From contig NTKA01000022.1 in the NCBI GenBank assembly GCA_002456975.1, positions 1-33,063 of the forward strand: a stretch of 33,063 bases of DNA, in the 5' to 3' direction. The notes under the pieces are model-generated. The model did no database searches and was not told the DNA's origin. It saw nothing but the letters and a program-made list of their open reading frames with translations. The translations under genes were made by a program, and so were the position numbers. Source of the DNA: Halieaceae bacterium MED-G27. GTDB taxonomy: Bacteria; Pseudomonadota; Gammaproteobacteria; Pseudomonadales; Halieaceae. Position 1 is the first letter of the stretch, and each line of letters begins with the position of its first letter. This document shows positions 9,545 to 32,275 of this stretch, in pieces.

Positions 9545-9709
9545 GATATTCCTGCGGTCAGCTGAGTATTTTATGTAGCGCGGAGCCTAGCGCGAAATGA
9601 GGATGTCGAGAAGCTCGTCGAGATGAACTTTTCCTTAAGAAGGCTAACGCGCGACACCTCAGCGGTGTTGTGTAAAAATGCGCGGCGAATTTTTATCTGA
9701 GGGGCTGTC
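9545..9709. promoter_or_regulatory. divergent intergenic region between alkaline phosphatase and ammonium transporter
   Basis: 165 bases hold the promoters of two nutrient-acquisition genes (phosphate and nitrogen) that face away from each other. The transporter side carries the palindrome described separately at 9654-9668 and a GAGG Shine-Dalgarno box just before its GTG start. I could not assign a convincing Pho box or a sigma-54 promoter by eye. Confidence 0.5.
9654..9668. promoter_or_regulatory. ACACC-N5-GGTGT palindrome, possible NtrC-type site
   Basis: A perfect ACACC/GGTGT inverted repeat with five bases between lies 41 bases before the ammonium transporter start. The spacing and core match the known NtrC operator pattern TGCACC-N5-GGTGCA apart from the outer bases. 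NtrC control of amt genes is well known. However, an NtrC enhancer usually sits further upstream of a sigma-54 promoter, and no clear GG-N10-GC promoter is seen here. Confidence 0.3.
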
Positions 9710-11023: not shown

Positions 11024-11032
11024 TGGCGTCGA

Positions 11033-17101: not shown

Positions 17102-18259
17102 ATGGCGGTTGATCATCCAGCAGCAGGAGAAAGTAGGGCCGTCCCCGCGATTTTCGCTGAGACAGTCAACGACTCGGATCGCCTGTTTTGGCTCCTCAAT
17201 ATTGGTGGTTGGGCTGGCCTGTGCGTGGTCAACTACGTGAGTCTCTCGCTCCCGTACGACCAAGTCGATGTCAACTACATCGCACACAACATACTGCAGT
17301 CTGTGTTGGGCATCATTTTATCTGTTCCGCTGCGCAGAGCATTCCGCTCGACTTGGGACTGGTCGCTAACCAATCGTGTGATCGTTGCGAGCTTCCTTGT
17401 TTTATTGACCGCTACCGTTTGGACTGTTTTACGGCTTGCTTTGTTTCTCGAAATTACGGACGAAGAGGGGCTCTGGGGAGATTTCGGTGGCTGGCTATTT
17501 ACATCACTCTTCGTATTCCTAACTTGGGTGGCGCTCTACCACGGCGTTAAATTCGCGCGATTGCTCGCTCGCGAGCGCGAGTCGTTACTGGTATTGGAGG
17601 CCGGGCGGCGTCAAGAGGCGTTCAAGCTGGTATCCGCTGAATCCGCTGCGCGAGAGGCCCAGTTGAAACTGTTGCGCTATCAACTCAACCCCCACTTTCT
17701 GTTTAATACCCTGAATTCTATTGCGGGGCTAATCGGAGCCAAGCGATCGGATGACGCGCAGACGATGTTGGCGGAGCTGTCTACGTTTTTGAGGTTCTCG
17801 CTCGAGTCTGATCGAAATTTGACCATTTCTTTGCGAGATGAAATCGAGGCTCTGGACCTCTACTTACGGATTGAGCAGATTCGTTTTACTGATCGATTGA
17901 CCGTAGATCAATATATCGACCCTCGGACTCTGGGTATGTCGGTACCTAGTTTGATTCTCCAGCCGCTGGTCGAAAATGCGATCAAGCATGCGATTGCCGG
18001 TGCCGAACTCGGTGGAAGTGTTACGATCTCGGCGAGACTGCAGCGCGATAAGCTTGTGTTGACCGTAGAAGACAGCGGTATTGGTAAGGAAGATATCGTT
18101 ACCGAGGTGCCGGACTTATTTACAAAGCCCGGCTTCGGGCTGCGCAGCACGGCAGAGCGTTTGGAAAATCTCTACGGCGAAGACTTTAGCTTTAATGCGT
18201 CAAAGTCGCCGTTGGGAGGTTTGCGGATAGAATTACACTTACCGCAAGTGGGTGGATAG
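17102..18259 (+). CDS. LytS/YehU-type sensor histidine kinase (HisKA_7TM-less, four-helix membrane sensor)
   Basis: 385 residues. About four membrane helices occupy residues 30-150 (INIGGWAGLCVVNYV, VLGIILSVPL, VIVASFLVLLTATVW, LFTSLFVFLTWVAL). A short coiled segment leads to the His_kinase domain with the phospho-acceptor His198 in LRYQLNPHFLFNTLNS, characteristic of the LytS class. The ATPase domain has the N-box LVENAIKHA and the G-box VEDSGIG. The stop is two bases before the start of the LytTR response regulator, so the pair forms one signalling system. There is no obvious ligand-binding domain outside the membrane, so the signal is probably membrane-borne or detected within the membrane. 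Confidence 0.92.
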   Translation: MAVDHPAAGESRAVPAIFAETVNDSDRLFWLLNIGGWAGLCVVNYVSLSLPYDQVDVNYIAHNILQSVLGIILSVPLRRAFRSTWDWSLTNRVIVASFLVLLTATVWTVLRLALFLEITDEEGLWGDFGGWLFTSLFVFLTWVALYHGVKFARLLARERESLLVLEAGRRQEAFKLVSAESAAREAQLKLLRYQLNPHFLFNTLNSIAGLIGAKRSDDAQTMLAELSTFLRFSLESDRNLTISLRDEIEALDLYLRIEQIRFTDRLTVDQYIDPRTLGMSVPSLILQPLVENAIKHAIAGAELGGSVTISARLQRDKLVLTVEDSGIGKEDIVTEVPDLFTKPGFGLRSTAERLENLYGEDFSFNASKSPLGGLRIELHLPQVGG

Positions 18260-18261
18260 TA

Positions 18262-19047
18262 ATGAACGACCTTTGCGTTTTATTGGTGGATGACGAGCCA
18301 TTAGCACTGGACTACATGTCGGAACTTCTGTCGACGGTTGAGGGCATCGAGATAGTCGGGCGTTGCCGCAGTGGTCGAGAGGCGCTCGCCGTCTTGCAAA
18401 CAGAATCCGTGGATCTCATGTTTCTGGACATTCAAATGCCGGGGCTGAGCGGCTTCGATGTGGTCAAACGGGTACAAAGCGACATTACACCGGTGGTGGT
18501 GTTCGCGACCGCTTTTGATGAATTTGCAGTGAAAGCGTTTGAAGCCAATGCAGTTGATTATCTACTAAAGCCCTTCGAAGCGAGCCGGGTGAAGGAGGCC
18601 GTCGATCGCGCGCGATCGCGTTTGATTTCGGCGGCTGTGCAATCGGGTAAAGATGCTGCGGTGGCAGCGGTAGCGGGGCTCGAGGGTCGTGATCGGCGTC
18701 TGAACCAATCCGTCAGCAGCGAGCGTCCAGCTCGGCTCCCGATCAAGGATGGTCCCCATACTCACCTTGTCGAATTGAAGGATATTGATTGGATCGATGC
18801 CGCCGGCGATTACATGTGTGTCCACGCGAGCAATGAGACTTATATCCTTCGGTCGACTATGAAAGAGCTGGAGAAGAAGCTCAGCGAGGAGTTTGTCCGG
18901 ATTCATCGCTCGACAATCGTAAACCTCAATAAGGTTCGTTCGGTCGATGCAATTCCAAAAGGTGAGTGCCTGCTCCATCTCGACGATGAAGTGACCCTGA
19001 AGGTCAGCCGAAACTACCGCTCCGCCGTCCAGAACCTCATGAGTTAA
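18262..19047 (+). CDS. LytTR-family DNA-binding response regulator
   Basis: 261 residues. The N-terminal receiver domain has the acidic pair Asp10-Asp11, phospho-acceptor Asp56 (LMFLDIQMPG), the conserved Thr/Ala switch region VVFATAFDEFA, and Lys in LLKPFEA. A linker of about 40 residues leads to a LytTR DNA-binding domain (about 160-260) with DIDWIDAAGDYMCVHA, RSTMKELEKKL and FVRIHRSTIVNLNKV. Regulators of this type bind imperfect direct repeats. Its gene is coupled to the sensor kinase and lies just before the GH16 gene, so control of the glucan enzymes is plausible but not shown. Confidence 0.93.
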   Translation: MNDLCVLLVDDEPLALDYMSELLSTVEGIEIVGRCRSGREALAVLQTESVDLMFLDIQMPGLSGFDVVKRVQSDITPVVVFATAFDEFAVKAFEANAVDYLLKPFEASRVKEAVDRARSRLISAAVQSGKDAAVAAVAGLEGRDRRLNQSVSSERPARLPIKDGPHTHLVELKDIDWIDAAGDYMCVHASNETYILRSTMKELEKKLSEEFVRIHRSTIVNLNKVRSVDAIPKGECLLHLDDEVTLKVSRNYRSAVQNLMS

Positions 19048-19180
19048 GCCCCTTTTTAGGGGGTTCCCACTTGTCTTGTCATGAGTCCCTATCGTCGCGT
19101 TTGCCTTAAGCGTCGCGGCCTGATGTGGGATAAACCGCAGTAATTAATTTCAATAATTTTTATGACCTGTGGGGTTACTC
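19048..19180 (+). promoter_or_regulatory. upstream region of the GH16 gene
   Basis: 133 bases between the regulator stop and the GH16 start. A small CCCC-TTTTTA-GGGG hairpin (19049-19062) lies directly after the regulator stop but lacks a following T-run. AT-rich sequence at 19140-19162 is the best place for the GH16 promoter. I see no exact pair of direct repeats to name as a LytTR site. Confidence 0.35.
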
Positions 19181-22100
19181 ATGATTGACCGTTTGTATCG
19201 TCGGAGCCGGTATCTTAGCTTGGCAGCTTCCATCGCATTGTTGAGCGCTTGCGGGGGCGGTGGCAGCGCGAACTCTGTCGAGGTCGAGCCATTTTATGTA
19301 GACCAAGCTGAAGAATGGGAATTGGTTTGGAGCGACGAATTCGACGGCGCGACGGTCGATTCTGCTAACTGGACCTTTCAGGAAGGCGATGGGAGCGAGT
19401 ACGGCCTTCCGGGCTGGGGTAATAACGAGCTTCAGTACTATGAAGCTGACAATGCCTCGATACAAACGGTCAATGATGCGAGCGCCCTCGTTATCGCCGC
19501 AGAGCAAGAAACCGTCGGTAATAAACAGTATACCTCAGCGCGAATGCGCTCGATCGACAAGTTCGACTTCAAATACGGCCGTGTCGAGATTCGCGCCAAA
19601 GCAGCGCCCGGTGAGGGCATGTGGTCATCAGTCTGGATGATGCCATCCGATGATATCTACGGTACTTGGGCCGCAGGTGGTGAGGTAGACATCATGGAGG
19701 TAGTCAATGCCGGTACGGATCGCCAGACCGTATTTTTGGCCGCTCATCACGGGTTTTCATCGCCTCTTAACCAAATCATAAGCGAGCCTGCTGACGTCAA
19801 TGACGCGAGCGATTGGCACACCTATGCACTGGAGTGGAGCGGCGACTACCTGCGGTGGTTTGTTGACGGTGTTCATTTGCAGACGGTCGATAAGGACGCT
19901 TACTACAGTTACTACTATAAAAACGAGTTTGAAGGATACGCTCTAGCGGCCGACCCCGCAGCACCTTTTAATCAGGACTTTCATTTGATTGTTAACTTGG
20001 CGGTCGGTGGTATCGGGCCCGGTGTTCCGCTCGACCCTTCGGCGGTGCCGGGTGAAATGGCCGTTGACTACATTCGCGTTTTCCGTTGTACCGCAGGTGG
20101 TGAAAACGGTGTTGGTTGTAATAGTAAAGCGGATCGTTACCTCGAGTCGCCAGAGGTAACTCCACCTGAGGTGAACGTCAATCCGATCTATGTGGACGCA
20201 GCGGGTCCGCTTACCTGGGATTTCCTCACGGGCGAGGTAACGCGTGATTTGATGTTGGCCGTAGGGTACGACAACAACGGAGCGATGTCGGTCTCTGAAG
20301 TCGCAGTCGACGGGCGAGGCAATGTCATCGATGTTATGACCACCATGGGTGGTAACGTTGTGATCCACGCTGCGGATGGCGAGGTCTTAGATGTTTTCGG
20401 CCATCGCGGGGGCGGTGAACTAAAGTTTGATATGTACATTGACAGTGCGATGACCGCTCCGTTCAGCTCGGTGGCGATCAAGATGGATAGCGGCTTTCCA
20501 GCGCTCGGTTCGGTTGACATTTCGCTCGCGGAGCTTCCTAAGGACGAATGGTTTTCCTACAGCGTCTCCATAAGCGACTTGTTAGACAACCCCGGTGAGG
20601 CGCCGTTGGCGCTCGGTGCCGTAATGAATGTATTCGTTATTGAACCGAGTAATGCGGCCCATATCCAACTCGATAACATTTCGTTGGTATGCGGCACTCC
20701 CTACACCGACGGGTGCGGTATCGCTGCTCCGGTACAAGAAACTGATGCTGCTGTGGTAACAGTGTTAGATGACAACGGTGAAGCTGGGTCAGCCTGGTCG
20801 CCGGGGATCTGTGCCGTTTCGTCCGAAGACTGGGGGACTGATTACTGCAGTGGCTCGACCACGAACCAAGTGACTTGGTCTGTGATGCCGTCAGGAGATG
20901 CCGACATCGGTACAGCGATCGAGGTGAATTTTGCGGCAGGAGAGGGGGCAGCCTGGTTTATCGTCTCTGATGTGGGTTTGAATCTCTCTACTTTCCGGAC
21001 AGCTGGTTCATTGCGGTTTGATATGAATATTCCAGAAGCCACAGCGGCTAAGGGCCTGATCTACAAGGTCGAGAGCGTATTCCCTAATGGCACCGGTCGC
21101 ATCGACCTGGATCTCACTGGCTATACGCCCGGTACTTGGCAGTCTTTTGATATTCCGGTCAGCGAGCTATTGGCGTCTACCGCTGCCGCATCGGATGAGT
21201 TCAATCCTGGTGGACCATTGGATATCGAAAGAGTAAAAGCCGGAATTGTGATTTCACCGATAGGGGAACAGGAAGGCGACTCATTCACGATCGCGAATGT
21301 TCGCTACGAGCGAGATGCGCAAGAGGCTACAGAGGATACCGGCATCTTGGGTACATGGATGGTCGAGCCGGGCGTTAATACGATCGGCATCGGACCAACT
21401 CCATTCGATGTGCAGTGGTGGAGCAACACGGAGGGTGTTAACACCGAACGTGCTTGTTTCTTCGATGACCAGTATATTTTTGGTCGCGATGGATCATTTA
21501 CCAACGTACTCGGAGACACGACTTGGATTGAGGGCTGGCAGGCCTCCGAAGAAGGCGCCGATATATGTGGTACCCCCGTGGCGCCACACGATGGAAGCGT
21601 CGAGGCGACCTTTGAGTTCGATGAGGAAGCGGAAATGCTGACGCTTTACGGCAAAGGCGCTTACATGGGACTGCCTAAGACCGTCAATGGCGCAGAGTTG
21701 GCGTCGCCAGACGCAGCGCCAGAGAGCACTGTGTACTCGGCGTATCTATCAGATGATCGCACGTCGCTTGACTTGGTAATTGAAGCGTTGCCTACCAACT
21801 TCTGGACCTACCAGTTTGTGAAGACTGCGGAGCCACCACCCCCGTCAATCATGCTAGGTACTTGGGTAACGTCGACCGAGGTGGGTACCCTCGGTGTTGG
21901 TCCCGCGGAGTTCGACACCCAATGGTTTAACAACACAGACGTAATCAACGATGAGCGAGCCTGCTTCTTCGACGATGAGTTTACGTTTGGCGCCGATGGC
22001 ACATTGACGATCGATCAACAGGGCGAAACCTGGATTGAGGGATGGCAGAACTCAAGCGAGGGGGCGGATATCTGTGGCACTCCCGTCGCGCCACACGATG

Positions 22101-22840
22101 GTGCCGGTGACTTTATGTGGTCGCACGATCAAGAGGCCGGAGAACTGACCTTGATGGGACAAGGCGCTTACTTGGGACTTCCCAAGGTGACTAATGCCGG
22201 TGAGACTGCGTCGCCAGAGCAAGCTCCAGAGACTGTTACATACAATCTTTACGATAATGACGACGGAACCGTCACCGTGACCATTCAGACACAGGATTCA
22301 GGTAACTGGTGGCAGCACAAGATGGTGAAGGTTGCTGAGTTGCCTGGCGAATCACCGATCGCTGGGTCGTGGTATCTGTCGACCGAGATTGGATCAATGG
22401 GGGTCGGCCCAGCCGAATTCGATACGCAATGGTTCAACAATACGGCGGTCATTAACGATGAGCGTGCTTGTTGGTTCGACGATGCGTACATTTTTGGTGC
22501 CGACGGCAGCTTTGCAATTGACCAGCAGAGCGAAACGTGGATCGAGGGTTGGCAGGGTTCTGACGAAGGTGCAGATATATGCGGTACTCCGGTCGCTCCC
22601 CACGACGGCTCTGCAGCAACGCATGTCTATGATGCTGACGCAGAGACCCTAACGCTTCAGGGCGCAGGTGCGTATATCGGCCTATCGAAGGTGACCAACT
22701 CTGGTGAGTTGGCCACCCCGGATGCTGCTCCAGCGGAGTTGGTGTACAACGCTTACCTCAGCGAAGACCAGCGCACCTTGACCCTGACGATCCAGACGAC
22801 TGATACAGGTAATTGGTGGCAGTTCGTATTGGTTCGATAA
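19181..22840 (+). CDS. Lipoprotein GH16 endo-beta-1,3-glucanase (laminarinase-like), multimodular
   Basis: 1,219 residues from ATG 19181; a GTG 12 bases earlier is less likely because GGGG sits well placed before the ATG. A type II signal ends with lipobox LLSAC at Cys24, followed by a glycine run that suggests surface or outer-membrane anchoring. The GH16 domain (about 40-305) has WSDEFDG, GWGNNELQYY and the catalytic motif EVDIME with nucleophile Glu168, Asp170 and acid/base Glu173, in the laminarinase/beta-glucanase form. Two beta-sandwich, carbohydrate-binding-like modules follow (about 335-508 and 530-715). Then come three tandem modules of 169, 169 and about 158 residues, listed separately. 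Expected action is internal cleavage of beta-1,3-glucan such as laminarin. A strong terminator follows. It is the largest and most modular enzyme of the locus. Confidence 0.93.
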   Translation: MIDRLYRRSRYLSLAASIALLSACGGGGSANSVEVEPFYVDQAEEWELVWSDEFDGATVDSANWTFQEGDGSEYGLPGWGNNELQYYEADNASIQTVNDASALVIAAEQETVGNKQYTSARMRSIDKFDFKYGRVEIRAKAAPGEGMWSSVWMMPSDDIYGTWAAGGEVDIMEVVNAGTDRQTVFLAAHHGFSSPLNQIISEPADVNDASDWHTYALEWSGDYLRWFVDGVHLQTVDKDAYYSYYYKNEFEGYALAADPAAPFNQDFHLIVNLAVGGIGPGVPLDPSAVPGEMAVDYIRVFRCTAGGENGVGCNSKADRYLESPEVTPPEVNVNPIYVDAAGPLTWDFLTGEVTRDLMLAVGYDNNGAMSVSEVAVDGRGNVIDVMTTMGGNVVIHAADGEVLDVFGHRGGGELKFDMYIDSAMTAPFSSVAIKMDSGFPALGSVDISLAELPKDEWFSYSVSISDLLDNPGEAPLALGAVMNVFVIEPSNAAHIQLDNISLVCGTPYTDGCGIAAPVQETDAAVVTVLDDNGEAGSAWSPGICAVSSEDWGTDYCSGSTTNQVTWSVMPSGDADIGTAIEVNFAAGEGAAWFIVSDVGLNLSTFRTAGSLRFDMNIPEATAAKGLIYKVESVFPNGTGRIDLDLTGYTPGTWQSFDIPVSELLASTAAASDEFNPGGPLDIERVKAGIVISPIGEQEGDSFTIANVRYERDAQEATEDTGILGTWMVEPGVNTIGIGPTPFDVQWWSNTEGVNTERACFFDDQYIFGRDGSFTNVLGDTTWIEGWQASEEGADICGTPVAPHDGSVEATFEFDEEAEMLTLYGKGAYMGLPKTVNGAELASPDAAPESTVYSAYLSDDRTSLDLVIEALPTNFWTYQFVKTAEPPPPSIMLGTWVTSTEVGTLGVGPAEFDTQWFNNTDVINDERACFFDDEFTFGADGTLTIDQQGETWIEGWQNSSEGADICGTPVAPHDGAGDFMWSHDQEAGELTLMGQGAYLGLPKVTNAGETASPEQAPETVTYNLYDNDDGTVTVTIQTQDSGNWWQHKMVKVAELPGESPIAGSWYLSTEIGSMGVGPAEFDTQWFNNTAVINDERACWFDDAYIFGADGSFAIDQQSETWIEGWQGSDEGADICGTPVAPHDGSAATHVYDADAETLTLQGAGAYIGLSKVTNSGELATPDAAPAELVYNAYLSEDQRTLTLTIQTTDTGNWWQFVLVR
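21350..21856 (+). repeat. GH16 C-terminal module 1 (169 residues)
   Basis: The first of three tandem copies inside the GH16 protein. It begins GTWMVEPGVNTIGIGP and carries the shared core TTWIEGWQ, ICGTPVAPHDG and KGAYMGLPK. Two cysteines (ERACFF and ADICGT) are conserved in all copies and probably form a disulfide. It is the most divergent copy, with WWSNTEGVNTERAC where the others have WFNNT-VINDERAC. Confidence 0.85.
21857..22363 (+). repeat. GH16 C-terminal module 2 (169 residues)
   Basis: Second copy, starting exactly 507 bases after the first. It has GVGPAEFDTQWFNNT, INDERACFFDD, ETWIEGWQNS, ADICGTPVAPHDG and QGAYLGLPKVTN. It is closest to module 3 at the protein level, while many codons differ at third positions, so the duplication is not recent. 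Confidence 0.85.
22364..22837 (+). repeat. GH16 C-terminal module 3 (about 158 residues)
   Basis: Third copy, again 507 bases after the previous start, ending with the protein itself (NWWQFVLVR). It keeps GVGPAEFDTQWFNNT, ERACWFDD, ETWIEGWQGS, ADICGTPVAPHDG and AGAYIGLSKVTN. From memory, domains with this core occur in surface glycan-binding proteins of marine Bacteroidetes; the sequence alone does not assign a function. Confidence 0.85.
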
Positions 22841-23012: not shown

Positions 23013-24500
23013 TTAAACTTTTGCGTGCGCCATCAGCTGCTTTATGTAGTCAGCATGTCGAGGTAAGCCAGCGACAGTGTTTTCTACATTATCGCGAATA
23101 CCCTGCATGAATTTGTCGAGCGATGGCTCGCCCTGTCCTGCCGCAATGTTGTGAAAGGCGGTGGGAGTCACTCCCTGCCCCAACATCACTTGAACCCAAG
23201 AATTCTCAGTAAAAATATCGTCTTGAGCTTGGAAGATTCGGCCTGTCTTCTTAAATAACTCCATCCTATGCGAGAGAGTGTCTGGTAGGGCCATATTTCG
23301 GCAATGATCCCAAAACGGATCGCCATAGCGTTCATTGGCTGCGTAATGGAGCACAATGAAATCTCTAATGTACTCAGCTTCAGATCTTATTCTCAGGTTG
23401 TATTCTTTTATCGTGCTCTTTTCGATCACAGGATCCGGGAACATCAAGAGCAACCACATAATACCATTTTGAATCATATGGATACTGGTGGATTCAAGCG
23501 GCTCAATAAAGCCACTTGCTAAACCCAAAGCCACGCAGTTTCGGTTCCAATACTGTCTGCGTTGCCCAGTCACAAACTTTATGGGACGAGGCTCGATGAT
23601 TAGCTTTTCGGGAACATTCGCAACCAGTGTGTCGCGTGCATCGTCATCGCTCATGAATTCGTTGCTATAAACGATGCCGTTACCAGCACGGTGCTGCAGT
23701 GGAATTCGCCACTGCCAACCCACTTTATGGGCAATCGCCCTAGTGTAAGGCTTTGGATGCTCCCCCAGCTCGCTTTGCACCGCCCATGCGCGATTAGCAG
23801 GTAGCCAATGCGTCCAATCGTCGTAGGTCCCGTTTAGCGCCGCGCCTGACAATAAGGCTCTGAAACCCGTGCAATCGATGAATAGGTCGCCTTCGACGGT
23901 GCTGTCGCCGTCGTTGATATCAAGCGATGCAATATCGCCATCGTCGCTCAGATTCACGCTTGAGATTTTTCCCTCAACTCGCGTAACGCCGGCACTTTCG
24001 GCGAGTCCCCTGAGGTAACGCCCGTATTTAGTCGCATCGAGGTGATAGGCATAGTTCAAGCGCTGCTGACTACTGATGGCAAATTTCTCTTCCTGAGCGG
24101 CCTTCAGTTCAGCGCAATAGTCACCATACTCCCCTGCAATCCCGAGCTCACGAGCTCGCAGCCAGAAATGATGGAATCCAGCGGCCCACGACCCCTTGCC
24201 CGTCTCTCCGAATGAGTGAATGTAGGATTCGCCCGATACTCGCCAGTTTTCAAACTGTATCCCTAGTTTAAAAGTACCACTGGTCAACTTGATAAAGTCG
24301 GGCTCGGGTATTTGCAGCATTCGATTGATAGTCAGTATTGAAGGAATGGTGGCTTCGCCGACCCCGACAGTGCCTATATCCTCTGACTCGATAAGCGTGA
24401 TCGAGAGCGGTCTAGCGACAAGCCTCGAGAGTGCCGCTGCTGCCATCCAGCCTGCGGTGCCCCCTCCTGCAATCACTACTTTTTCGATGGACTTTTGCAT
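23013..24500 (-). CDS. Flavin-dependent halogenase (tryptophan halogenase family)
   Basis: 495 residues. The FAD-binding motif GGGTAGWMAAAAL is at 12-24, followed by the family motif VGVGEATIPSIL. The catalytic lysine equivalent to PrnA Lys79 is seen in TFKLGIQFENW, and the second halogenase signature WxWxIP is present as GWQWRIP. EPLESTSIHMIQ near residue 345 supplies the conserved glutamate. All residues for HOCl/chloramine-type halogenation therefore appear intact, in contrast to mere monooxygenase relatives. The enzyme needs a flavin reductase, which is not adjacent. It is the third gene of a packed run SapC-cupin-halogenase downstream of the TonB-dependent receptor. Substrate is unknown; free tryptophan is only one possibility. 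Related genes next to TonB receptors are common in marine and freshwater proteobacteria. Confidence 0.92.
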   Translation of the reverse strand: MQKSIEKVVIAGGGTAGWMAAAALSRLVARPLSITLIESEDIGTVGVGEATIPSILTINRMLQIPEPDFIKLTSGTFKLGIQFENWRVSGESYIHSFGETGKGSWAAGFHHFWLRARELGIAGEYGDYCAELKAAQEEKFAISSQQRLNYAYHLDATKYGRYLRGLAESAGVTRVEGKISSVNLSDDGDIASLDINDGDSTVEGDLFIDCTGFRALLSGAALNGTYDDWTHWLPANRAWAVQSELGEHPKPYTRAIAHKVGWQWRIPLQHRAGNGIVYSNEFMSDDDARDTLVANVPEKLIIEPRPIKFVTGQRRQYWNRNCVALGLASGFIEPLESTSIHMIQNGIMWLLLMFPDPVIEKSTIKEYNLRIRSEAEYIRDFIVLHYAANERYGDPFWDHCRNMALPDTLSHRMELFKKTGRIFQAQDDIFTENSWVQVMLGQGVTPTAFHNIAAGQGEPSLDKFMQGIRDNVENTVAGLPRHADYIKQLMAHAKV

Positions 24501-24513
24501 AAGCGCTTGTGCC

Positions 24514-25521
24514 TCAGTGCGTTAAAGTTCGCTGCAGGTGGTTCCGCAGTCGTTGCGCTATATCTTGATTATTACTGTCAAAGCTAGCTGCAATGGCCTC
24601 AGGCATATGAGCTAAATGCTCATCATCGTCAGCGAAGATATAATGGTTGAAAAAGTTTTTCATGGCATCGCGCTGAGCTTTTGGCAAACACCGGACACTC
24701 ATCAAGGCGTGTTTCAAGGCGTCAATGGGTGAGCCATTGACAGGACTAAGCTCGTGCCACCAATAATTGATCAACCCATTGATCGGGTCGAGTCCTTCAA
24801 CGTGATGCCACCAGAGACTTGGTATGTACACGGCATCGCCCGGTTCCAGTTCAACAGTGAGTAGGGCCTTTTCGGCCTCCGCGAATCTCGGGAAGCGAGC
24901 GTAGTCAGGGTTATTAAAATCGACCATGCTTATAGGCTGCCCAGCAGGTGTGAAATCGAGCGGCCCGATATACAAATTCTCAATTTGTTCTGGAGGCGCC
25001 AAAGTGAACCTACGCCTTCCAAAGATGCAGCAGGCGATATTCCTGGGGAAGTCGAAATGTGCCGAAATACGGCTTCTGTTCCCCAGCCATAAGCTTGTGG
25101 TTAGGTTGGGTAACACGGACCCAAGAGGGTTTGCCCTGGTAAACCCAGGTAGCCATTGGTCAACGTCGGTTGAGCCCACATAAATGCCGGGCGGCTCTGC
25201 AGTATGCCTATTCGTTAGTAACTGCTCGATGACTTGCGGCAGCGATGTTTCCAAAGATAAAAAGTTGAAGCCGGATAGGCTGTCGTCATAGAAAAAACGA
25301 CCGCGATGCTCCGGTTCCGCGATAATAGTGCTGACGGGCTTTTGTTGATAGAACGAAAGTAATCCGCGGAGTGATTCCTCGAGGCTGTTTTCAGCTGCTT
25401 GAACGATCGGCCAATTCTCCACGAAGCCACGGGCTACCCACGGAGCGTCTGAAGTCAGCAACCCTTCAGGTAAGTCTTGCTGATGTGTGACAACAATTTC
25501 GTCTATGGCTCTTTCAGTCAT
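24514..25521 (-). CDS. Cupin_8 / JmjC-like Fe(II)/2-oxoglutarate oxygenase
   Basis: 335 residues. The core carries the metal-binding HxD in SAHFDFPRN (His155, Asp157) and the distal His in PSLWWHHVEG (about 239), as in cupin_8/FIH-like JmjC oxygenases; LEPGDAVYIP is the typical strand before it. Such proteins hydroxylate protein or small-molecule targets, or, in related sets, tRNA. The ATG at 25521-25519 overlaps the SapC stop as TGATG; a GTG three bases earlier is also possible. It is 13 bases upstream of the halogenase gene. Together they suggest a common modification route, but the target is unknown. Confidence 0.87.
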   Translation of the reverse strand: MTERAIDEIVVTHQQDLPEGLLTSDAPWVARGFVENWPIVQAAENSLEESLRGLLSFYQQKPVSTIIAEPEHRGRFFYDDSLSGFNFLSLETSLPQVIEQLLTNRHTAEPPGIYVGSTDVDQWLPGFTRANPLGSVLPNLTTSLWLGNRSRISAHFDFPRNIACCIFGRRRFTLAPPEQIENLYIGPLDFTPAGQPISMVDFNNPDYARFPRFAEAEKALLTVELEPGDAVYIPSLWWHHVEGLDPINGLINYWWHELSPVNGSPIDALKHALMSVRCLPKAQRDAMKNFFNHYIFADDDEHLAHMPEAIAASFDSNNQDIAQRLRNHLQRTLTH

Positions 25522-26252
25522 CACGACACCAATGAATTTTCCATCATCCGCTGATTCTTGAGGTTGATAAGTCGCTTCATCTGCGACATCGAAGCGACCA
25601 TCATGTAAGCAGGGAGGAGAAAGCCCTGCTGCTGAAGGTCTGTGACGACCGAGTCATCGGCACTTTGCAGTTTTTCGTCGTCGATCGCATGTAGACCGGT
25701 TAGATCTATTCGTTTCTCGTCTGGCAGTGGTATCTGAAAATTGATGGGCGTGATCAACTCATGTTTCGTTAGGGTTTGGGTAAAGGCTCCTGCTGTTTTA
25801 AGCCCTTGGTGAATACCTTCGAGCATCGTGGCCAGCCGCTCTAAATAAGAAGTCGTAGAGCCATCTTCGTTAAACAGGGCGAACCCGTGATCTTTATTCA
25901 CGTTGGGATGGTCCAGATTAATGGCGACATAGCGCTCTTCGTCGCTACCTTCGGCCGGTGGGTCTTGTCCGATAAGCAGTGGCCCGCGCTGAATCATCAT
26001 AGGCACGTAAGGCGTCTGCCATTGGTTTTGACCGATACATAGATTTTCTCCAGCTTGAACACCAAATAGCGCGATTGGGTGATACGCGCCATCTGTTTTG
26101 TTTCGGGTAAACAGCAGTGGAAAGCACGCCTGCAGTGCCCGCATTTCGCCGAGGACTATGGGGGCATAAGTATCCTCAGCAAATTCATTGGGGTTTTGCA
26201 GGATCTTCAGCTCGCCGTGATCTCGAGCGTTTAACTTCTGAACATTTGCCAT
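25521..26252 (-). CDS. SapC family protein
   Basis: 243 residues matching the SapC family, with VPIVLGEM-like APIVLGEMRALQACFPLLF, HPIALFGVQAGENL, GQNQWQTPYVPMMIQRGPLLIG and the C-terminal VASMSQMKRLINLK region. SapC was first named in a Campylobacter S-layer cluster, but its biochemical role in proteobacteria is unknown; it often accompanies TonB-dependent receptors, cupin_8 proteins and halogenases. No signal peptide is seen, so it is likely cytoplasmic. No good Shine-Dalgarno precedes the ATG. It is 123 bases downstream of the receptor gene with a terminator between, and it overlaps the cupin gene. Confidence 0.85.
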   Translation of the reverse strand: MANVQKLNARDHGELKILQNPNEFAEDTYAPIVLGEMRALQACFPLLFTRNKTDGAYHPIALFGVQAGENLCIGQNQWQTPYVPMMIQRGPLLIGQDPPAEGSDEERYVAINLDHPNVNKDHGFALFNEDGSTTSYLERLATMLEGIHQGLKTAGAFTQTLTKHELITPINFQIPLPDEKRIDLTGLHAIDDEKLQSADDSVVTDLQQQGFLLPAYMMVASMSQMKRLINLKNQRMMENSLVS

Positions 26253-26325
26253 GACTAATGATAATTAATTGGGCTTTCAAATGTGCAAGCACGTCCAATT
26301 TATTTCCGGACTCTTTATTAATACT

Positions 26326-26352
26326 AAAAAAAAGCCGCCTTTAAGGCGGCTT
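26326..26352 (-). terminator. rho-independent terminator after the TonB-dependent receptor gene
   Basis: AAGCCGCC (26332-26339) and GGCGGCTT (26345-26352) form an 8-bp GC-rich stem with a short loop; on the minus strand it is followed by a T-run (plus-strand A at 26326-26333). It lies 24 bases past the receptor stop and before the SapC start, so the downstream trio would be expressed by read-through or from its own promoter. Confidence 0.9.
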
Positions 26353-26375
26353 AGATACACTGCGGTATCACTTTC

Positions 26376-29348
26376 TCAGAAAGCGTATCGGAACCCGACA
26401 TTAAACCGCGCCCCTTGTTGACCAGCGGCATAGACCTGATACCAACTTCTAGCATACGAACGGAAGGTGTTGTTCGTCATGTTAATACCTTCAGCAAAGA
26501 CCGTGAAGTTATCCGTTAGCTCGTAGGTTACGTTGGCATCCCACTGCTCGTAAGCCCTTACATAGGAGGGCTGAATGGGGTTACCGGTAAAGTACTCATC
26601 GCGCCAGTTGTACGCTACCCGAGTTTGGAATCCATATTTGTCATAAAACAGGATTACGTTTCGAGTATCACTCAGGCCACCCAGAGCGTTTTGCGCTGCA
26701 TCGGACGAATTATCGTATTCTGCCGAACCGCTCGCGAAAGTCGCGTTAGCAATGAAGCCAAAGCCGGTATCACCAAAGTTGTGCTGCCATGCTAACTCAA
26801 AGCCATCGATACTCTCGAGACGATCACTGTTGGTGACTGTATTGATGTTCACTCTAATCGGATTATCTCGACCTACCACACCATAGATGGCGTCGTTTGC
26901 CGGATCTACACCCGGAGCATTAGCGTAGTTGTCGAAGATGTACTGACGAATATCACCGTTTGAGGGTATCTCGCCCGTATCCGCTTCGAGGGCCGCAGCA
27001 GCTTCCTGATAGAGCGGACCTAAACCTGGGTGCACCAAGTTCTCGTCGTAAACCACATCCTCTACAGAGCTCGCGCCGATCCAGTTGGCCACTTCCTTAT
27101 CAAAGTAACCGACAGAAATATAGCTCGCGTCGCCATAGTAGTACTCTAACGATAGATCGATATTATCTGCTTCGTAAGGCAGCAAGCCAGGGTTTCCGTA
27201 ATCAACCGAAATATTGCCCTGAACCCCGCGGGTTACTGGAATGTAAAGCGGAACCGAGGGGACGCCTTTTAAGGATCCAAAGCCGGCTCGCGCGATCGTC
27301 TGGCTTACCGCGGCTCGGAAAACCAAGTCATCAGTAAGCTCGATGTCAAAATCAAGCGATGGCAGCATGTGGTCATAACTTCCTGTCAATCCGGTAGATC
27401 GCGTTTTTGAGCCCTGAAGCACAACGAACTCGTTGCCTCCGGACCAGGAAATTCCTTCATAAGTTGGGATAATCGAATAAGAAGTCACTTCGGTTTCTTC
27501 GTATCGAACACCACCACGGACGGTGTAGGGCATATCGAAAGCCACCCCTTGGTAGCTTACCTGCAGGTAGGCCGCGTCGGTATTTTCCTCAAACTCATCT
27601 TCACCGTTATTTGGCTCCCACTGATTGCAAAACGCGTTGCCGCAGCTACCGTTGAGATTTTCGTTGTTGCCGTAAATCTGGCCGTAATACAGTGGGTTAT
27701 TCGGGTTCAGCGAGTTGAGATAAAGTGCTCGCTCAATCAAGTCGCCTAGGTCAGCCATAAAGAACTGTGTAGCGATCTGATGACCACCAGCCAGTGCGTT
27801 GAAAACGCCCTCAAGTGACGCAGGTACGGCAATATCAGCAACGCTGCCATAAGCTGTGGTATCCGCGCTGGACCATTTGTCACGCTGTACCAATGATGCC
27901 GCCGAGTAGTTGTCCACTTCCGTGCGCGACAAACCAAAGTTAACTTGGAGGTCTTCAGACACGTCAAACGTGCCGTCAAATTGTGCTTGCCCAAGTGTCA
28001 TGTCGGCCCAGTTGTTCGTGAATTTGCTGCCTGAGATGTGAAGATCATCAGGAGACAAGGGCTCTGCCAATTGTACGCTTAGGACGGGAACTTCATTGCT
28101 GAAGTCTGTGCTCGCAATCTCTCGACCATACACAGACATAGCGACTTGGGCGTAGCTGCCATACCGTCCACTCGGTGACGATTTTGCCGTTGACTCATGA
28201 ACGTCGAGGCTTAGACTGAGCCGGTCGGTTGCATCCCATTCGAGATTGAAGCCGATAGACTCTCTCTCGTTCAGTGATGCATCTTCAAATGTGCCCATTA
28301 CGAAGTCTGGCTGGTTGAAGCTTTCGGTGTAGATTACCGGTGATGCCACGTTGTCTACAGTTGTCCAACTGCCTTCTTCGCGGATCTGACCGTAATAGGT
28401 GCCTACTGAGTTCCCAGTGTGAGTCAAATCCAGCTCAGCCATCGTGTAATCAAGCGTTGCCGTCAATGAATCGATCGGGCGCCATTGCATGGTTACCTGG
28501 GCGTTTTCCCGCACTCTCACATATTCGTCTAGAGCGTAGGTGTTTTCGCGAGGTACGGCTGGGATCGCATCCCCAGTCGGCGCATTGATGTTGGTACCGT
28601 TATCTGGAATGCCCGGGAATTCGGTCCATGAGCTGGTTCTTCCTGAAGCCTCGCCAGAGTGCCGCTCTTGGTAGGATCCGGTCACTGCTATACCAACGGT
28701 ATCGTCAAGGAATGTTTGGGAGAACAGAACTGCAATCTCAGGCGTTACGTCATCCCCTGAGCGGGAGCTCTTATCGCGAACGCCTTTTGCGCTCAGCGTG
28801 AAATTAGTACCGGGTCGATCTAGGGGCTTCGCAGTCAGTACGTTTATGGTTGCACCAATGCCACCGGTTGGGATATCTGACTGCGCTGTCTTGTAGACCT
28901 CGACGCCAGACACTGCTTCTGACGCAATATCACCAAAGTCAAACGAGCGACCGAAGCCACTGTGGGTCGGCATTTGACGGCCGTTCAAGGTCACCAGATT
29001 GAAGTCAGCTCCGAAACCACGGACTGTAACTCGAGCGCCTTCGCCACGAGTTCTATCGATTGCAACGCCGGTGATCCGCTGTAGCGCTTCGGCTAAGTTA
29101 GTATCGGGGAAGTCGCCGATATCTTCAGCAGTAATCGCATCAACAACGCCCGTGGCGTCGCGCTTGGTGTCCATTGCGCGCTTCAGGCTCGAACGGATAC
29201 CGGTAACAACGATTTCTTCCATGACCTGGTCATTAGCGCTCTCTGACTCCTGAGCGACTGCAGGAATGGCAGTCACAGCACCCAGTGCCATCGATACCGC
29301 GAGAGACACACGCTTTTTAGCAAACAAGTGACGATCCATGCTTGGCAT
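26376..29348 (-). CDS. TonB-dependent outer-membrane receptor
   Basis: 990 residues. The signal peptide ends near AVA at about residue 32. A TonB-box-like EEIVVTGIRSS follows (about 44-54), then the plug domain with DAITAEDIGDFPDTNLAEAL, GVAIDRTRGEGARVTVRG and LVTLNGRQMP, and a long 22-strand-type beta-barrel ending in the terminal aromatic FRYAF. The layout is that of the TonB-Xanth-Caul receptors used for oligosaccharide uptake in Xanthomonas, Caulobacter and marine gammaproteobacteria. In this locus the likely ligand is a beta-glucan oligosaccharide. MPSMDR allows a start at 29348 or 29339; GGGG is only two bases from the first and eleven from the second. It is divergent from the GH3 lipoprotein gene. 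Confidence 0.94.
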   Translation of the reverse strand: MPSMDRHLFAKKRVSLAVSMALGAVTAIPAVAQESESANDQVMEEIVVTGIRSSLKRAMDTKRDATGVVDAITAEDIGDFPDTNLAEALQRITGVAIDRTRGEGARVTVRGFGADFNLVTLNGRQMPTHSGFGRSFDFGDIASEAVSGVEVYKTAQSDIPTGGIGATINVLTAKPLDRPGTNFTLSAKGVRDKSSRSGDDVTPEIAVLFSQTFLDDTVGIAVTGSYQERHSGEASGRTSSWTEFPGIPDNGTNINAPTGDAIPAVPRENTYALDEYVRVRENAQVTMQWRPIDSLTATLDYTMAELDLTHTGNSVGTYYGQIREEGSWTTVDNVASPVIYTESFNQPDFVMGTFEDASLNERESIGFNLEWDATDRLSLSLDVHESTAKSSPSGRYGSYAQVAMSVYGREIASTDFSNEVPVLSVQLAEPLSPDDLHISGSKFTNNWADMTLGQAQFDGTFDVSEDLQVNFGLSRTEVDNYSAASLVQRDKWSSADTTAYGSVADIAVPASLEGVFNALAGGHQIATQFFMADLGDLIERALYLNSLNPNNPLYYGQIYGNNENLNGSCGNAFCNQWEPNNGEDEFEENTDAAYLQVSYQGVAFDMPYTVRGGVRYEETEVTSYSIIPTYEGISWSGGNEFVVLQGSKTRSTGLTGSYDHMLPSLDFDIELTDDLVFRAAVSQTIARAGFGSLKGVPSVPLYIPVTRGVQGNISVDYGNPGLLPYEADNIDLSLEYYYGDASYISVGYFDKEVANWIGASSVEDVVYDENLVHPGLGPLYQEAAAALEADTGEIPSNGDIRQYIFDNYANAPGVDPANDAIYGVVGRDNPIRVNINTVTNSDRLESIDGFELAWQHNFGDTGFGFIANATFASGSAEYDNSSDAAQNALGGLSDTRNVILFYDKYGFQTRVAYNWRDEYFTGNPIQPSYVRAYEQWDANVTYELTDNFTVFAEGINMTNNTFRSYARSWYQVYAAGQQGARFNVGFRYAF

Positions 29349-29761
29349 AACCCCGACTATTTATTAGTTAGTAAATTTGGTTAGACGCTAACATCCCACG
29401 AGCGGTCCCGGTAGGGAATGGGGTTGAGACAAGGTGGGATATGAGTGCGGTAAAAGGGAAGGCAGGTTTGGGGCTCGGGAATACCGCGTCAATCCAGCCA
29501 AAAATCAGCAGTCGTTTGTTAAAAACTGCAATGAATTAAATTGCTCAGATGTCGTTGTATCTCAGCAGTCCCGACTGCCGTGGTGTGAGCACCGGTTGTC
29601 GCAAATAGGGTGATTGCAGTTTATGTTTGCGGCTACGGTGGCAGCTTGAAGTAGAAATAAATTGTGCCCGTCGAGTGACTATTCGTTGCAAAAACAACGG
29701 AATAAGAAAAGCGGTAGTACTCACCATGACTGGGGACCAATTGATAAAAGGAATGGCAACC
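29349..29761. promoter_or_regulatory. divergent regulatory region, TonB receptor and GH3
   Basis: 413 bases without a clear gene between two divergent genes of the locus; the open frame that precedes the GH3 start here is judged non-coding because it lies before the signal peptide. The region holds repeated GCAGT/ACTGC half-sites (listed separately), an ATCCCAC / GTGGGAT pair at about 29392 and 29432, and the AAAGGA ribosome binding site of the GH3 gene (29746-29751). AT-rich blocks at 29515-29545 and 29650-29715 are candidates for promoters. Confidence 0.5.
29507..29578. promoter_or_regulatory. clustered GCAGTC inverted repeats, candidate operator
   Basis: Two inverted repeats sit close together. 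GCAGT (29508-29512) pairs with ACTGC (29525-29529), and GCAGTC (29565-29570) pairs with GACTGC (29573-29578) across two bases. The first and third half-sites share the heptamer AGCAGTC, 57 bases apart. They lie between the receptor and GH3 starts, where a shared operator is expected. The regulator is not known; both palindromes could also be chance. Confidence 0.3.
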
Positions 29762-32275
29762 ATGCCGCTAGGTTTGAATCGCTCATACCGCAATTTTACT
29801 CTCCTAATCACCTGCGTTGCAGCACTGGCTGCCTGCCATCAGCCCTCTGAGGACACTAATTCAAACGGCAGCAACCCGGCACTGGCTTGTGCGTTTGCAT
29901 TGGCGCCCAGCGACGACAGCAGTGGTTGCGTGGCCAGTATCGTATCCAGCCTTTCGCCAGAGCAAAAAATAGGGCAAATGATTCAGGGCGAGATTCGTGA
30001 CGTTACGCCTGAGGATGTCAGGGATTTCTATCTGGGTAGCGTACTGAACGGTGGCGGCGGTTTCCCGAGTAATGACAAGTACTCCACCGTCTCGGATTGG
30101 GTGCAACTGGCGGATGATTATTACAACGCGTCACTGGACACCTCGACCGGCGGCGCTGGCATCCCGATTGTCTGGGGTACTGACGCCGTTCACGGGCACA
30201 ACAACGTCATGGGGGCGACGCTCTTTCCGCATAACGTTGGGTTGGGTGCTACTCGCGATACTGAATTAGTCAGTCGGATCATTGGTGCTACAGCTCGAGA
30301 GGTTAAAGCTACCGGTATCGATTGGATTTTCGCGCCCACAGTCGCCGTGGCAAAAGATTTTCGATGGGGCCGGACCTACGAGTCGTTTAGCTCTGACCCA
30401 GAGATAGCGGCGAGCTTCGTTGCTCCAGTGGTGAGAGCCATGCAGGCCGAGGGAGTCGCCTCTACAGCAAAGCATTTTATCGGGGATGGAGGAACACTCC
30501 GAGGTGATGATCGCGGTGAGACTACATTGCCATTGGATCAGCTAGTCGACATTCACGGCCGAGGCTACGTCGAAGCGATCAATGAGGATGTCATGAGTGT
30601 TATGGCCTCATTCAATAGCTGGTACGGCGACAAAATCCATGGCAGTAAAGCAATTCTGACCGATCTACTGCGGGATGAAATGGGTTTCGGCGGCATGGTG
30701 GTCAGCGACTGGAATGGAATTGGCGAGGTCCTGGGCTGCACCAATGACGACTGTGCCAAGGCAGTCAATGCCGGTATCGACATGATTATGGCGCCGGCGG
30801 ACTGGAAGCCCCTGTACTACAACCTATTGGAGCAGGTTAAATCGGGTGAGATCTCTATCGACCGAATTGACGAAGCTGTCAGTCGAATTTTGGTGATGAA
30901 AATTCGGGCGGGTTTGTTTTCCCGGGGCGAGCCTTCATCTTTTGCGCAGGGATTTAGAGATCAAATTGGCAACCCGGAGCATCGAGCCATTGCGCGGGAA
31001 GCTGTTCGAAAGTCGCAAGTGCTACTTAAAAACGAGGGCCAGTTGTTGCCGCTAAATCCCAAGGGCACCTACCTCATAGCTGGCCCGGGTGCAGATGACA
31101 TCGGTATGCAGAGTGGTGGTTGGTCAGTGAGTTGGCAGGGCACTGGGAACTCAAATCGTGACTTCCCCGGCGGCACATCGATTCTTCAGGGCCTACAGGC
31201 ACAGATTGATGTTGCAGGCGGGCAGATAACCACCGACCCATCCGCCGAGGTTGATGCCGCCATAATAGTATTCGGTGAAACTCCCTATGCCGAGATGCAA
31301 GGCGATATTTATTCGCTCGAGTGGCTATCGATGCGAGGTGAAAAGGCGTTGGTGAACTCTCTGGTAGCTCGCGATGTTCCTGTGGTGTCGTTGTTTCTGA
31401 CGGGGCGTCCGATGTGGGTCAACGATTTGTTAAACGACTCCCAAGCGTTTGTCGTCAGCTGGTTACCGGGCTCAGAAGGGGCTGGTGTTGCCGATGTGTT
31501 ACTGAGCGATGCAGATGGCAGTGTGCAATTTGATTTCACAGGGCGACTACCGATGCCTTGGCCTAACCTCGACGTGAACGCGGAGAATCGAGACTTACCG
31601 GTCGATGACTTCATTTTCCCACTGGGTTTTGGGCTTTCGGTTGATGACGAGGTGGCCTGGGCGATGCTGTCTGAAACCACCATCGGCGCTGATAACAGCC
31701 TCGATCAGGAAATTTTCAACGGCGGCCCCCGTGGGCCTTGGAAGCTCTATGTCGGGGACGACAGCGATTGGGCGGTGGATGCCTCATCGAGCCGATCGAG
31801 CTCTTCTACGGGAAGCGTTGTTGTCGAGGCCATTGACCGCGTCGTGCAAGAGGACTCGCGCCGCGTGACATTTACCGGGGACGGGACCAATGTGTCTCAG
31901 GTTTATTTCCAGTCCGAGTATCCGACTGATCTGACCGAGCTTAACGAGGCGGGCGGTGCACTGGTGATTGATTATCGTGTGGTTGAGCAACCTACCGAGC
32001 TGGTCGAGCTACGTATGGATTGTAAGTACCCCTGCTCGGGTAGCACTCGGTTCACCAAGGTGCTGAGCGACTCCGCGCTTGGGCAGTGGACACAAAAAGC
32101 CATCCCAGTCGCTTGTTTTGAGCAGGCAGGCACCAACTTGGCAGGGGTTGAAACCGCGTTCGTCATGGCGACCAAAGGGTCGCTGACTATCGAGATCTCC
32201 AATATCGCACTTTCTACAACGCCCTCGATCAAGGCAGGTGTGTCCTGTGCTGATATGGTGAACGATAATTTGTAG
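29762..32275 (+). CDS. Lipoprotein GH3 beta-glucosidase
   Basis: 837 residues from ATG 29762, chosen because AAAGGA lies ten bases upstream and the frame then opens directly with a type II signal ending LAACH; ATG 29753 is nearly as good. GH3 motifs are WGTDAVHGHNNV, GIDWIFAPTVA, KHFIGDGGT and GGMVVSDWNGIG with probable nucleophile Asp316, then LLKNEGQLLPL, SGGWSVSWQGT and TGRPMW in the second domain. A C-terminal beta-sandwich (about 640-820, DCKYPCSG) matches the tail of the other GH3. It should release glucose from beta-linked oligosaccharides, anchored in the outer membrane or periplasm. The symporter gene follows after 45 bases, probably in one transcript. Confidence 0.92.
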   Translation: MPLGLNRSYRNFTLLITCVAALAACHQPSEDTNSNGSNPALACAFALAPSDDSSGCVASIVSSLSPEQKIGQMIQGEIRDVTPEDVRDFYLGSVLNGGGGFPSNDKYSTVSDWVQLADDYYNASLDTSTGGAGIPIVWGTDAVHGHNNVMGATLFPHNVGLGATRDTELVSRIIGATAREVKATGIDWIFAPTVAVAKDFRWGRTYESFSSDPEIAASFVAPVVRAMQAEGVASTAKHFIGDGGTLRGDDRGETTLPLDQLVDIHGRGYVEAINEDVMSVMASFNSWYGDKIHGSKAILTDLLRDEMGFGGMVVSDWNGIGEVLGCTNDDCAKAVNAGIDMIMAPADWKPLYYNLLEQVKSGEISIDRIDEAVSRILVMKIRAGLFSRGEPSSFAQGFRDQIGNPEHRAIAREAVRKSQVLLKNEGQLLPLNPKGTYLIAGPGADDIGMQSGGWSVSWQGTGNSNRDFPGGTSILQGLQAQIDVAGGQITTDPSAEVDAAIIVFGETPYAEMQGDIYSLEWLSMRGEKALVNSLVARDVPVVSLFLTGRPMWVNDLLNDSQAFVVSWLPGSEGAGVADVLLSDADGSVQFDFTGRLPMPWPNLDVNAENRDLPVDDFIFPLGFGLSVDDEVAWAMLSETTIGADNSLDQEIFNGGPRGPWKLYVGDDSDWAVDASSSRSSSSTGSVVVEAIDRVVQEDSRRVTFTGDGTNVSQVYFQSEYPTDLTELNEAGGALVIDYRVVEQPTELVELRMDCKYPCSGSTRFTKVLSDSALGQWTQKAIPVACFEQAGTNLAGVETAFVMATKGSLTIEISNIALSTTPSIKAGVSCADMVNDNL

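Follow-up and report, generated by a model that had tools for sequence, protein, structure and literature searches.

The genes for a flavin-dependent halogenase (FDH1), a cupin_8 (JmjC) oxygenase and a SapC family protein lie behind the gene for one class of TonB-dependent receptor (TBDR). Their order is mostly the same, and their divergence keeps pace with that of the receptor. The set is a receptor-bound cassette with the order TBDR-[FDH2]-SapC-cupin_8-FDH1-[DUF6445], which FDH2, a second PF04820 protein, joins in most relatives and DUF6445 in some. The reading favoured here, with a probability of roughly 0.4, is that the trio is a maturation cassette, which would halogenate and hydroxylate the receptor chain encoded by the preceding gene in the cytoplasm, before its export.

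The locus and its proteins

The window (the whole stretch of DNA analysed, 33,063 nt) belongs to a 2.02 Mb genome that is 75% complete. Its receptor gene (26376..29348, minus strand; 990 aa) is of the TIGR01782 (Xanthomonas/Caulobacter) class (613.7 bits, cut-off 310), and the Pfam profiles for plug (PF07715) and barrel (PF00593) both match it. Behind it, also on the minus strand, come SapC (25521..26252; 243 aa; PF07277, 190.2 bits, cut-off 28.9), the cupin_8/JmjC protein, an FIH-like 2-oxoglutarate oxygenase (24514..25524; 336 aa; PF13621, 216 bits, cut-off 27.4), and FDH1, a canonical halogenase of the Xcc4156/BrvH type (23013..24500; 495 aa; PF04820, 608.3 bits, cut-off 21). The flanking genes are on the plus strand. 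On one side is a GH16 (19169..22840; PF00722) with three similar repeats at its C-terminus and an ExDxxE motif at residues 172-177, which we take to be laminarinase-like; on the other are a GH3 with an Exop_C domain (29627..32275; PF00933, PF01915, PF18559) and a symporter truncated by the contig end (32321..33061; open ORF), presumably of SSS type as recognised by eye, whose phmmer matches in relatives are 487-526 aa long and adjoin the same GH3. Receptor, GH16, GH3 and sugar transporter are thus all present, by profile or phmmer, as a beta-glucan locus. The first-pass annotation had placed the receptor and trio on one strand between the GH16 and the GH3/symporter pair, and the ORFs and Pfam/TIGR profiles bear this out, with all four genes intact. 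Its description of the spacing as overlaps or 13-base gaps is right for SapC/cupin_8 (a 4-base overlap) and cupin_8/FDH1 (13 bases), but the receptor and SapC are 123 bases apart; a hairpin search of the sequence found a terminator-like hairpin and T-run in this gap (26332..26352, minus strand).

Genes in this and other loci were called from greedy ORFs with HMMs or single seeds taken from the study's own proteins, so an absent gene is weaker evidence than a present one. The labels GH97, GH13, GH43, SSS and FucP reflect recognition of single seeds, and LacI, MFS, GH1 and DUF6445 have one Pfam-checked member each.

The motifs GGGTAG (from residue 12), TFKLGIQFENW (with K78), WQWRIP (at 262) and EPLESTSIH can be read directly in FDH1. 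The earlier observation that it keeps the Lys, WQWRIP and the FAD motif stands: K78 and the W262-P267 motif (W262, W264, I266, P267) are invariant in an 11-member alignment, as are E333, E336, S337 and T338, and FDH1 aligns to PDB 6Y1W (Xcc4156) with 53% identity over 488 residues. Its nearest solved structures are, in order, Xcc4156, 9LUQ and BrvH. The cupin_8 protein was likewise said to keep HFD and a distal His; H156-x-D158 and H240 are indeed invariant in 19 of 19 aligned sequences, as is R171. Its best PDB matches by profile are to FIH (E 9e-30) and next to JMJD5, both of them JmjC protein hydroxylases, and R171 aligns with a Lys of FIH that we take to be its 2-oxoglutarate residue. For SapC a confident AlphaFold2 model was obtained (pLDDT 96.3), with no PDB fold match at E<=0.001 in Foldseek (best E 0.26) and no sequence relative in the PDB; since Foldseek matched it to no PDB fold, the idea that SapC conceals a known enzyme fold was set aside. 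By eye no signal peptide is seen at the N-termini of the trio, so FDH1, cupin_8 and SapC are probably cytoplasmic.

Distribution and divergence of the cassette

Loci were collected starting both from the halogenase and from the receptor. The halogenase-first survey covers the best 80 of 583 FDH1 relatives confirmed in a scan of genome contigs, and is biased to close FDH1 relatives for that reason. Among the 69 of these 80 loci with enough upstream room (11 lack it), a TBDR is present in 64 and missing from five, in agreement with the first-pass statement that the set recurs next to TonB receptors; cupin_8 is found in 60, SapC in 57 and FDH2 in 47, and all four occur together in 41. DUF6445 (PF20043) lies directly behind FDH1 in 13 of the 80. 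An attempt to identify DUF6445 by sequence search of the PDB gave weak TAL-repeat matches and weaker ones (E 6e-5 up), which were taken as spurious. The receptor-first survey comprised 59 receptor places. Six with under 6.5 kb of downstream sequence were not counted; the remaining 53 either carry FDH1 or are followed by 6.5 kb or more. FDH1 is behind 43 of these 53 receptors and any cassette gene behind 46.

Wider surveys, in which the host's own genome is always counted, give lower bounds, since few candidates per genome were scored (three receptors and six halogenases for the order, three and five for the class, and two receptors in the receptor-first survey). The order was sampled with 245 genomes: at least 27 have window-like receptors (E<=1e-70) and at least 37 have PF04820 matches (E<=1e-40). 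Once the split rows of four receptors had been joined manually, 40 places with a window-like receptor were counted, and in at least 33 of these a PF04820 match lies no more than about 12 kb away. For 276 genomes of the class, the numbers with such receptors and such matches are at least nine and at least 15. In the genus, 22 of 37 genomes have SapC. Among 14 control genomes that of Caulobacter vibrioides, a laboratory model, alone matches SapC, and it is matched by PF13621 and PF04820 (E<=1e-40) too, at family level. Taking the best 80 of 583 with the same-genus loci, the arrangement recurs in Alpha-, Beta- and Gammaproteobacteria, which argues that it is not due to chance; hosts among the best 80 include Alteromonas, Shewanella, Colwellia, Duganella, Massilia, Lysobacter, Sphingomonas and Pseudoxanthomonas. 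Seven genomes (G090, G118, G167, G220, G245, G282, G654) have two receptors, each with its own FDH1 cassette.

Within the genus, 19 of 21 cassettes have FDH2 before SapC, interrupted in one locus (L025), and it is missing from the window locus, L030 and L039 among the same-genus loci; the window trio is thus a reduced tetrad. Spacing is tight, with median gaps across cassettes of -4 bases for SapC-cupin_8, 12 for cupin_8-FDH1, 8 for FDH2-SapC and 109.5 for TBDR-FDH2. Such short gaps within the cassette leave little room there for a separate peptide gene.

Whether the trio goes with particular receptor subclasses and with glucanases had been raised by the first-pass annotation, and the answer differs for the two: in the loci surveyed the full trio stands behind one receptor class and behind no unrelated receptors, but its co-occurrence with glucanases is patchy. 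At least 38 of the best 80 of 583 halogenase-first loci have GH3 or GH16 by the narrow seeds used, and 12 have both, with GH1, GH94 or no CAZyme recognised by these seeds in others. In the contig pieces examined for the same genus, 17 of 21 cassettes have GH3 or GH16. At one further locus (L148) a receptor lies between GH3 and GH16 without the set. Eight genomes together have 21 receptors that exceed the TIGR01782 cut-off, 13 of them next to a cassette gene and eight not. Halogenase-family genes also accompany other receptors of the TIGR01782 class without SapC or cupin_8, for example beside GH97/GH13-like genes (L046, L048).

Co-divergence was compared by Mantel correlation. In the 26 loci with all genes, TBDR distances correlate with those of FDH1 at 0.91, cupin_8 at 0.87, SapC at 0.82 and FDH2 at 0.71, against 0.42 for TBDR-GH3 and 0.33 for FDH1-GH3; GH3 correlations in this set range from 0.29 to 0.44, values that may be lowered by mixing of paralogues, since the best-scoring GH3 copy per locus was used. 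None of 500 permutations reached any of the observed values, GH3 included. Dropping the requirement for FDH2 (35 loci) gives 0.90 for TBDR-FDH1, 0.79 for both SapC and cupin_8, and 0.38 for GH3. With the largest set available per pair, the values are 0.78 for FDH1 (99 loci), 0.70 for SapC (80), 0.68 for cupin_8 (87), 0.67 for FDH2 (66) and 0.31 for GH3 (38). Cassette divergence mirrors the receptor more than it does GH3, which marks a unit and not contact; inheritance as an operon could by itself account for both the co-linkage and the mirrored divergence, without contact between the proteins.

The hairpin behind the receptor gene is not peculiar to the window. Behind 113 of 143 cassette receptors a terminator-like site lies no more than 150 bases away (14.6 expected from block shuffles), and 104 of 145 TBDR-to-cassette gaps contain one (7.2 expected), against three of the 349, much shorter, gaps within cassettes; many of the loci are related, so that these counts are not independent. 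Sites of this kind also follow 10 of 23 receptors with another same-strand gene within 400 bases and six of nine with an opposite-strand gene next. Over the window's 7-kb stretch as a whole they are not above chance (5 vs 6.1 expected), and it is conserved position that counts here, not overall abundance. On our reading the hairpin would damp the output of the enzyme genes to below that of the receptor; that they have a promoter of their own downstream of it is equally possible, and the TBDR-SapC gap has one weak sigma-70-like match.

A possible role in receptor maturation

If the cassette serves receptor maturation, its enzymes would act on the receptor chain after translation, in the cytoplasm and prior to export. 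FDH1 would halogenate an exposed Trp (or Tyr), a residue nearby would be hydroxylated by the FIH-like oxygenase, and SapC would hold or present the chain. The hairpin would keep the enzymes well under the receptor in amount, and such scarcity would fit catalysts working on an abundant substrate. Modified aromatics at the outer mouth might tune glycan binding, or might shield the receptor from phages, bacteriocins or oxidation. A role of this kind would explain why one genome can have several receptors with their own cassettes, why there is little room for a separate peptide gene, why a protein-hydroxylase-like enzyme is paired with the halogenase, and why a homologue is weakly active on free indole. 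The first-pass annotation had suggested a ligand, a peptide or the receptor itself as the substrate, rather than free tryptophan. Since the set belongs to the receptor, the last of these is the favoured part, and the exclusion of free Trp agrees with the papers on Xcc4156 and BrvH, which halogenate indoles and not free Trp (PMC5945002, PMC7336383).

The best single candidate target is W492, to be taken as a lead and not a finding. The AlphaFold2 model of the receptor (pLDDT 83.4) has a TonB receptor as its best Foldseek match (E 1.5e-29), and the predicted secondary-structure string, from which all residue placements were made, puts W492 two residues past a strand, at the end read as the outer rim. 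In receptor alignments with duplicate proteins removed beforehand, Trp occupies this column in 92 of 93 cassette-type receptors with FDH1 and in all 43 receptor-first ones with FDH1, compared with one of seven FDH2-SapC-only and one of four cassette-free relatives; of 137 receptors, six for which the downstream sequence was shorter than 6.5 kb did not enter the yes/no counts, except that one of them (L152) was restored as "none", its genome having no PF04820 match. Trp is missing in six of 10 receptors with FDH1 alone, and is kept in seven of 10 without an adjacent FDH1, six of these seven having no cassette gene at all. One receptor that keeps W492 (L200) is from a genome, 97% complete (G664), with a single PF04820 match, FDH2-like by score. 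Four other genomes (G226, G586, G684, G638) have 5 to 17 PF04820 matches each, and these proteins could act in trans on W492 receptors; a fifth (G603) has 21, and its receptor (L197) has SapC and cupin_8 only. Among relatives in genomes without a PF04820 match, L151 and L152 lack the Trp, and in L165 the column is occupied by a Trp whose sequence surroundings differ.

Other columns do as well. A783, E342, W635, W915 and T202 score like W492 in the column ranking, and a filter for residues kept with FDH1 (with or without cupin_8) and rare otherwise passes D137, G397, W492, A783 and Y988. In a tree, most FDH1-cassette receptors fall into a single clade, which brings the link between W492 and FDH1 close to one event. 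This tree, the equal-scoring columns and the receptor-first counter-examples led us to reject the view that W492 is a proven target. Two further candidates were rejected. At column 318 there is Tyr in the window and L039, neither with FDH2, and Trp in 67 of 68 receptors with both halogenases; as an FDH2 target W318 fails because, among the 33 further FDH1 receptors that lack FDH2, 24 have the Trp all the same. A residue specific to cupin_8 was sought as well, and the only column, F749, is also kept by FDH2-SapC-only and cassette-free receptors.

There is a serious chance, somewhat below even, that the conserved Trp of the rim, W492 among them, simply stack against sugars in the usual way and that the cassette acts elsewhere, a view compatible with the other readings. 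Columns 241, 318 (Tyr in the window), 492, 635 and 915 have Trp in at least 90% of 38 receptors, and all five columns are at strand ends assigned to the outer side by predicted secondary structure; moreover, Trp 241 and 318 are common without the set too (55% and 75% of 20 receptors), and W492 is itself kept in most of the receptors without an adjacent FDH1. Against this, W492 alone of the five Trp columns is among those that pass the filter for FDH1 presence and rarity otherwise.

It seems rather unlikely that the product or substrate of the cassette is a small molecule, aromatic or peptide in nature, which the receptor exports, imports or senses. FDH1-type enzymes do halogenate free indoles in vitro (PMC5945002, PMC7336383), and LacI-type regulators and sugar transporters are found in many of the loci. 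However, no recurring biosynthetic gene beyond the oxidative enzymes was seen in the clusters inspected, there is little space for a precursor gene within the cassette, and two receptors with their own cassettes in each of seven genomes would be odd for a shared product. Indole turnover by BrvH is also so low that its authors doubt that indole is the substrate (PMC5945002).

Less probable again is that the flavoproteins are monooxygenases or redox sensors acting on the receptor or a partner, in the manner of QhpG, or are mainly chaperones. QhpG modifies a Trp of a peptide, and its profile does match FDH1, weakly and under the cut-off (33 bits vs 240). In FDH2, WxWxI[GA] (102 of 114 distinct sequences of at least 450 aa) and EPxEA[ST] (111 of 114) replace WxWxIP and EPxEST, with the loose Lys pattern in 100 of 114. 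Its nearest solved structures are 2PYX and 9LTB; these differences from FDH1 make FDH2 a second, distinct enzyme, and perhaps a non-halogenase. Against this reading, the FDH1 homologues BrvH and Xcc4156 halogenate indoles (PMC5945002, PMC7336383). Moreover, of 161 distinct FDH1 sequences of at least 450 aa, WxWxIP is kept in 158, EPxEST in 159 and the loose Lys pattern in 147.

A role in dealing with aromatic or halogenated compounds found alongside algal glucan, also suggested in the first-pass annotation, is very improbable, for although the set lies within a beta-glucan locus in the genus and the habitat is inferred to be marine, glucanases are patchy even among the best 80 of 583 halogenase-first loci, co-divergence with GH3 is weak, the set is missing from one receptor flanked by GH3 and GH16, and it is also found in Duganella, Massilia, Lysobacter and Sphingomonas, mostly non-marine genera; glucan-specific halogen chemistry was set aside on these grounds.

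Relation to known systems

In a literature search covering few subscription journals, no paper was found that treats SapC together with a halogenase, and none with SapC, tryptophan halogenase and TonB-dependent receptor together. Neither "TonB" nor "SapC" occurs in the main text of the Xcc4156 and BrvH papers (PMC5945002, PMC7336383), nor do TonB, SapC or cupin in that of PMC8269204. Co-mentions of "tryptophan halogenase" with "TonB-dependent", and of halogenase with Caulobacter and TonB, do exist in the literature. A peptide substrate has already been proposed for the Xcc4156 and BrvH group (PMC5945002, PMC7336383). To this older idea the present work adds a quantified link to the receptor, as well as FDH2, DUF6445, the hairpin and a model of SapC.

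BrvH/Xcc4156-type enzymes attract study as biocatalysts, and the survey narrows the hunt for their substrate to the co-encoded receptor, so that the question is now a direct one: either the receptor bears a halogen or it does not. A broader proposal, put forward tentatively and with the odds against it, is that widespread outer-membrane nutrient receptors may be halogenated, and hydroxylated, by dedicated sets, with SapC as a presenter of new fold, and that this may be the native function of the BrvH/Xcc4156 group. Enzymatic halogenation of the receptor, if true, would to our knowledge be the first case for a membrane transporter, and protein halogenation would become a routine step in building nutrient receptors. 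Should the receptor reading prove false, the cassette would still need explaining, because its tie to the receptor is strong.

The window resembles CUT loci and PULs, in which TonB receptors occur with CAZymes, in having a TBDR, GH16, GH3 and a sugar symporter; it differs in the added halogenase cassette, which tracks the receptor more than the CAZymes. The cupin_8 protein shares the HxD...H residues of FIH and JMJD5, with an Arg matching the FIH Lys, but unlike them it is bacterial and in an operon with a receptor. Xcc4156 (6Y1W, Xanthomonas campestris) and BrvH (6FRL) are of the same halogenase type as FDH1 and have the same motifs. A precedent for the proposed maturation of the receptor is given by MibH, SrpI and MppI, flavin-dependent halogenases that, according to PMC12615548, act on ribosomal peptides (on Trp in the case of MibH and SrpI), MibH requiring prior hydroxylation of proline. 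Those substrates are small RiPP precursors, whereas the sole recognised co-encoded chain here is an outer-membrane receptor of 990 aa.

FDH2, DUF6445 and the receptor

The second, non-canonical PF04820 protein, FDH2, is present in 19 of 21 same-genus cassettes. It is missing from the window, where the gap between the TonB-dependent receptor and SapC spans 26253-26375, and from two loci of relatives, L030 and L039. Comparison of the receptors shows that A157S, W318Y and an altered G493 are common to the window and L039. At the other end of the cassette, a DUF6445 gene (PF20043; look-up of the family yielded neither a structure nor a function) immediately follows FDH1, the canonical halogenase, in L092, L103, L109, L110, L112-L115, L122, L133, L134, L136, L138, L145, L155, and L164.

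SapC and halogenase genes outside the cassette

SapC genes are also found on their own, in L014, L018, L027, L040, and L043. No halogenase or receptor was called near these copies, which suggests that SapC has a more general role. By eye, the stand-alone gene adjoins a tuf-like gene in L027 and a valS-like gene in L018.

PF04820 matches reach 21 in G603 and 17 in G638, two genomes of the order-level sample, counting a few short ones; this is an unusual expansion of halogenase-family genes. Genome G000 has a second full-length halogenase in L044 (G000:C20, about 9631-11202). Beside it, judged by eye, are genes resembling those for alcohol dehydrogenase and for a GcvT-like protein. Neither a TonB receptor nor a cassette gene was called within the 18 kb examined, and from its sequence context this halogenase looks like an orphan.

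The GH16 region and a cassette-free counterpart

The window GH16 ends in three similar C-terminal repeats (21350-22840; starts at 21350, 21857, and 22364), spaced 169 residues apart. Immediately upstream of GH16, at 17102-19047, a PF06580 histidine kinase is paired with a LytTR response regulator, and the two may act as the glucan sensor; genes of nearly identical size adjoin GH16 in the same-genus loci L020-L022 and L039.

Locus L148 (G251:C81) has a receptor of the window receptor's class between GH16 and GH3, with no cassette genes near it. This receptor is without W492, the Trp considered a possible FDH1 target, and the genome carries halogenases elsewhere. L148 is a natural comparison locus for the cassette-bearing receptors.
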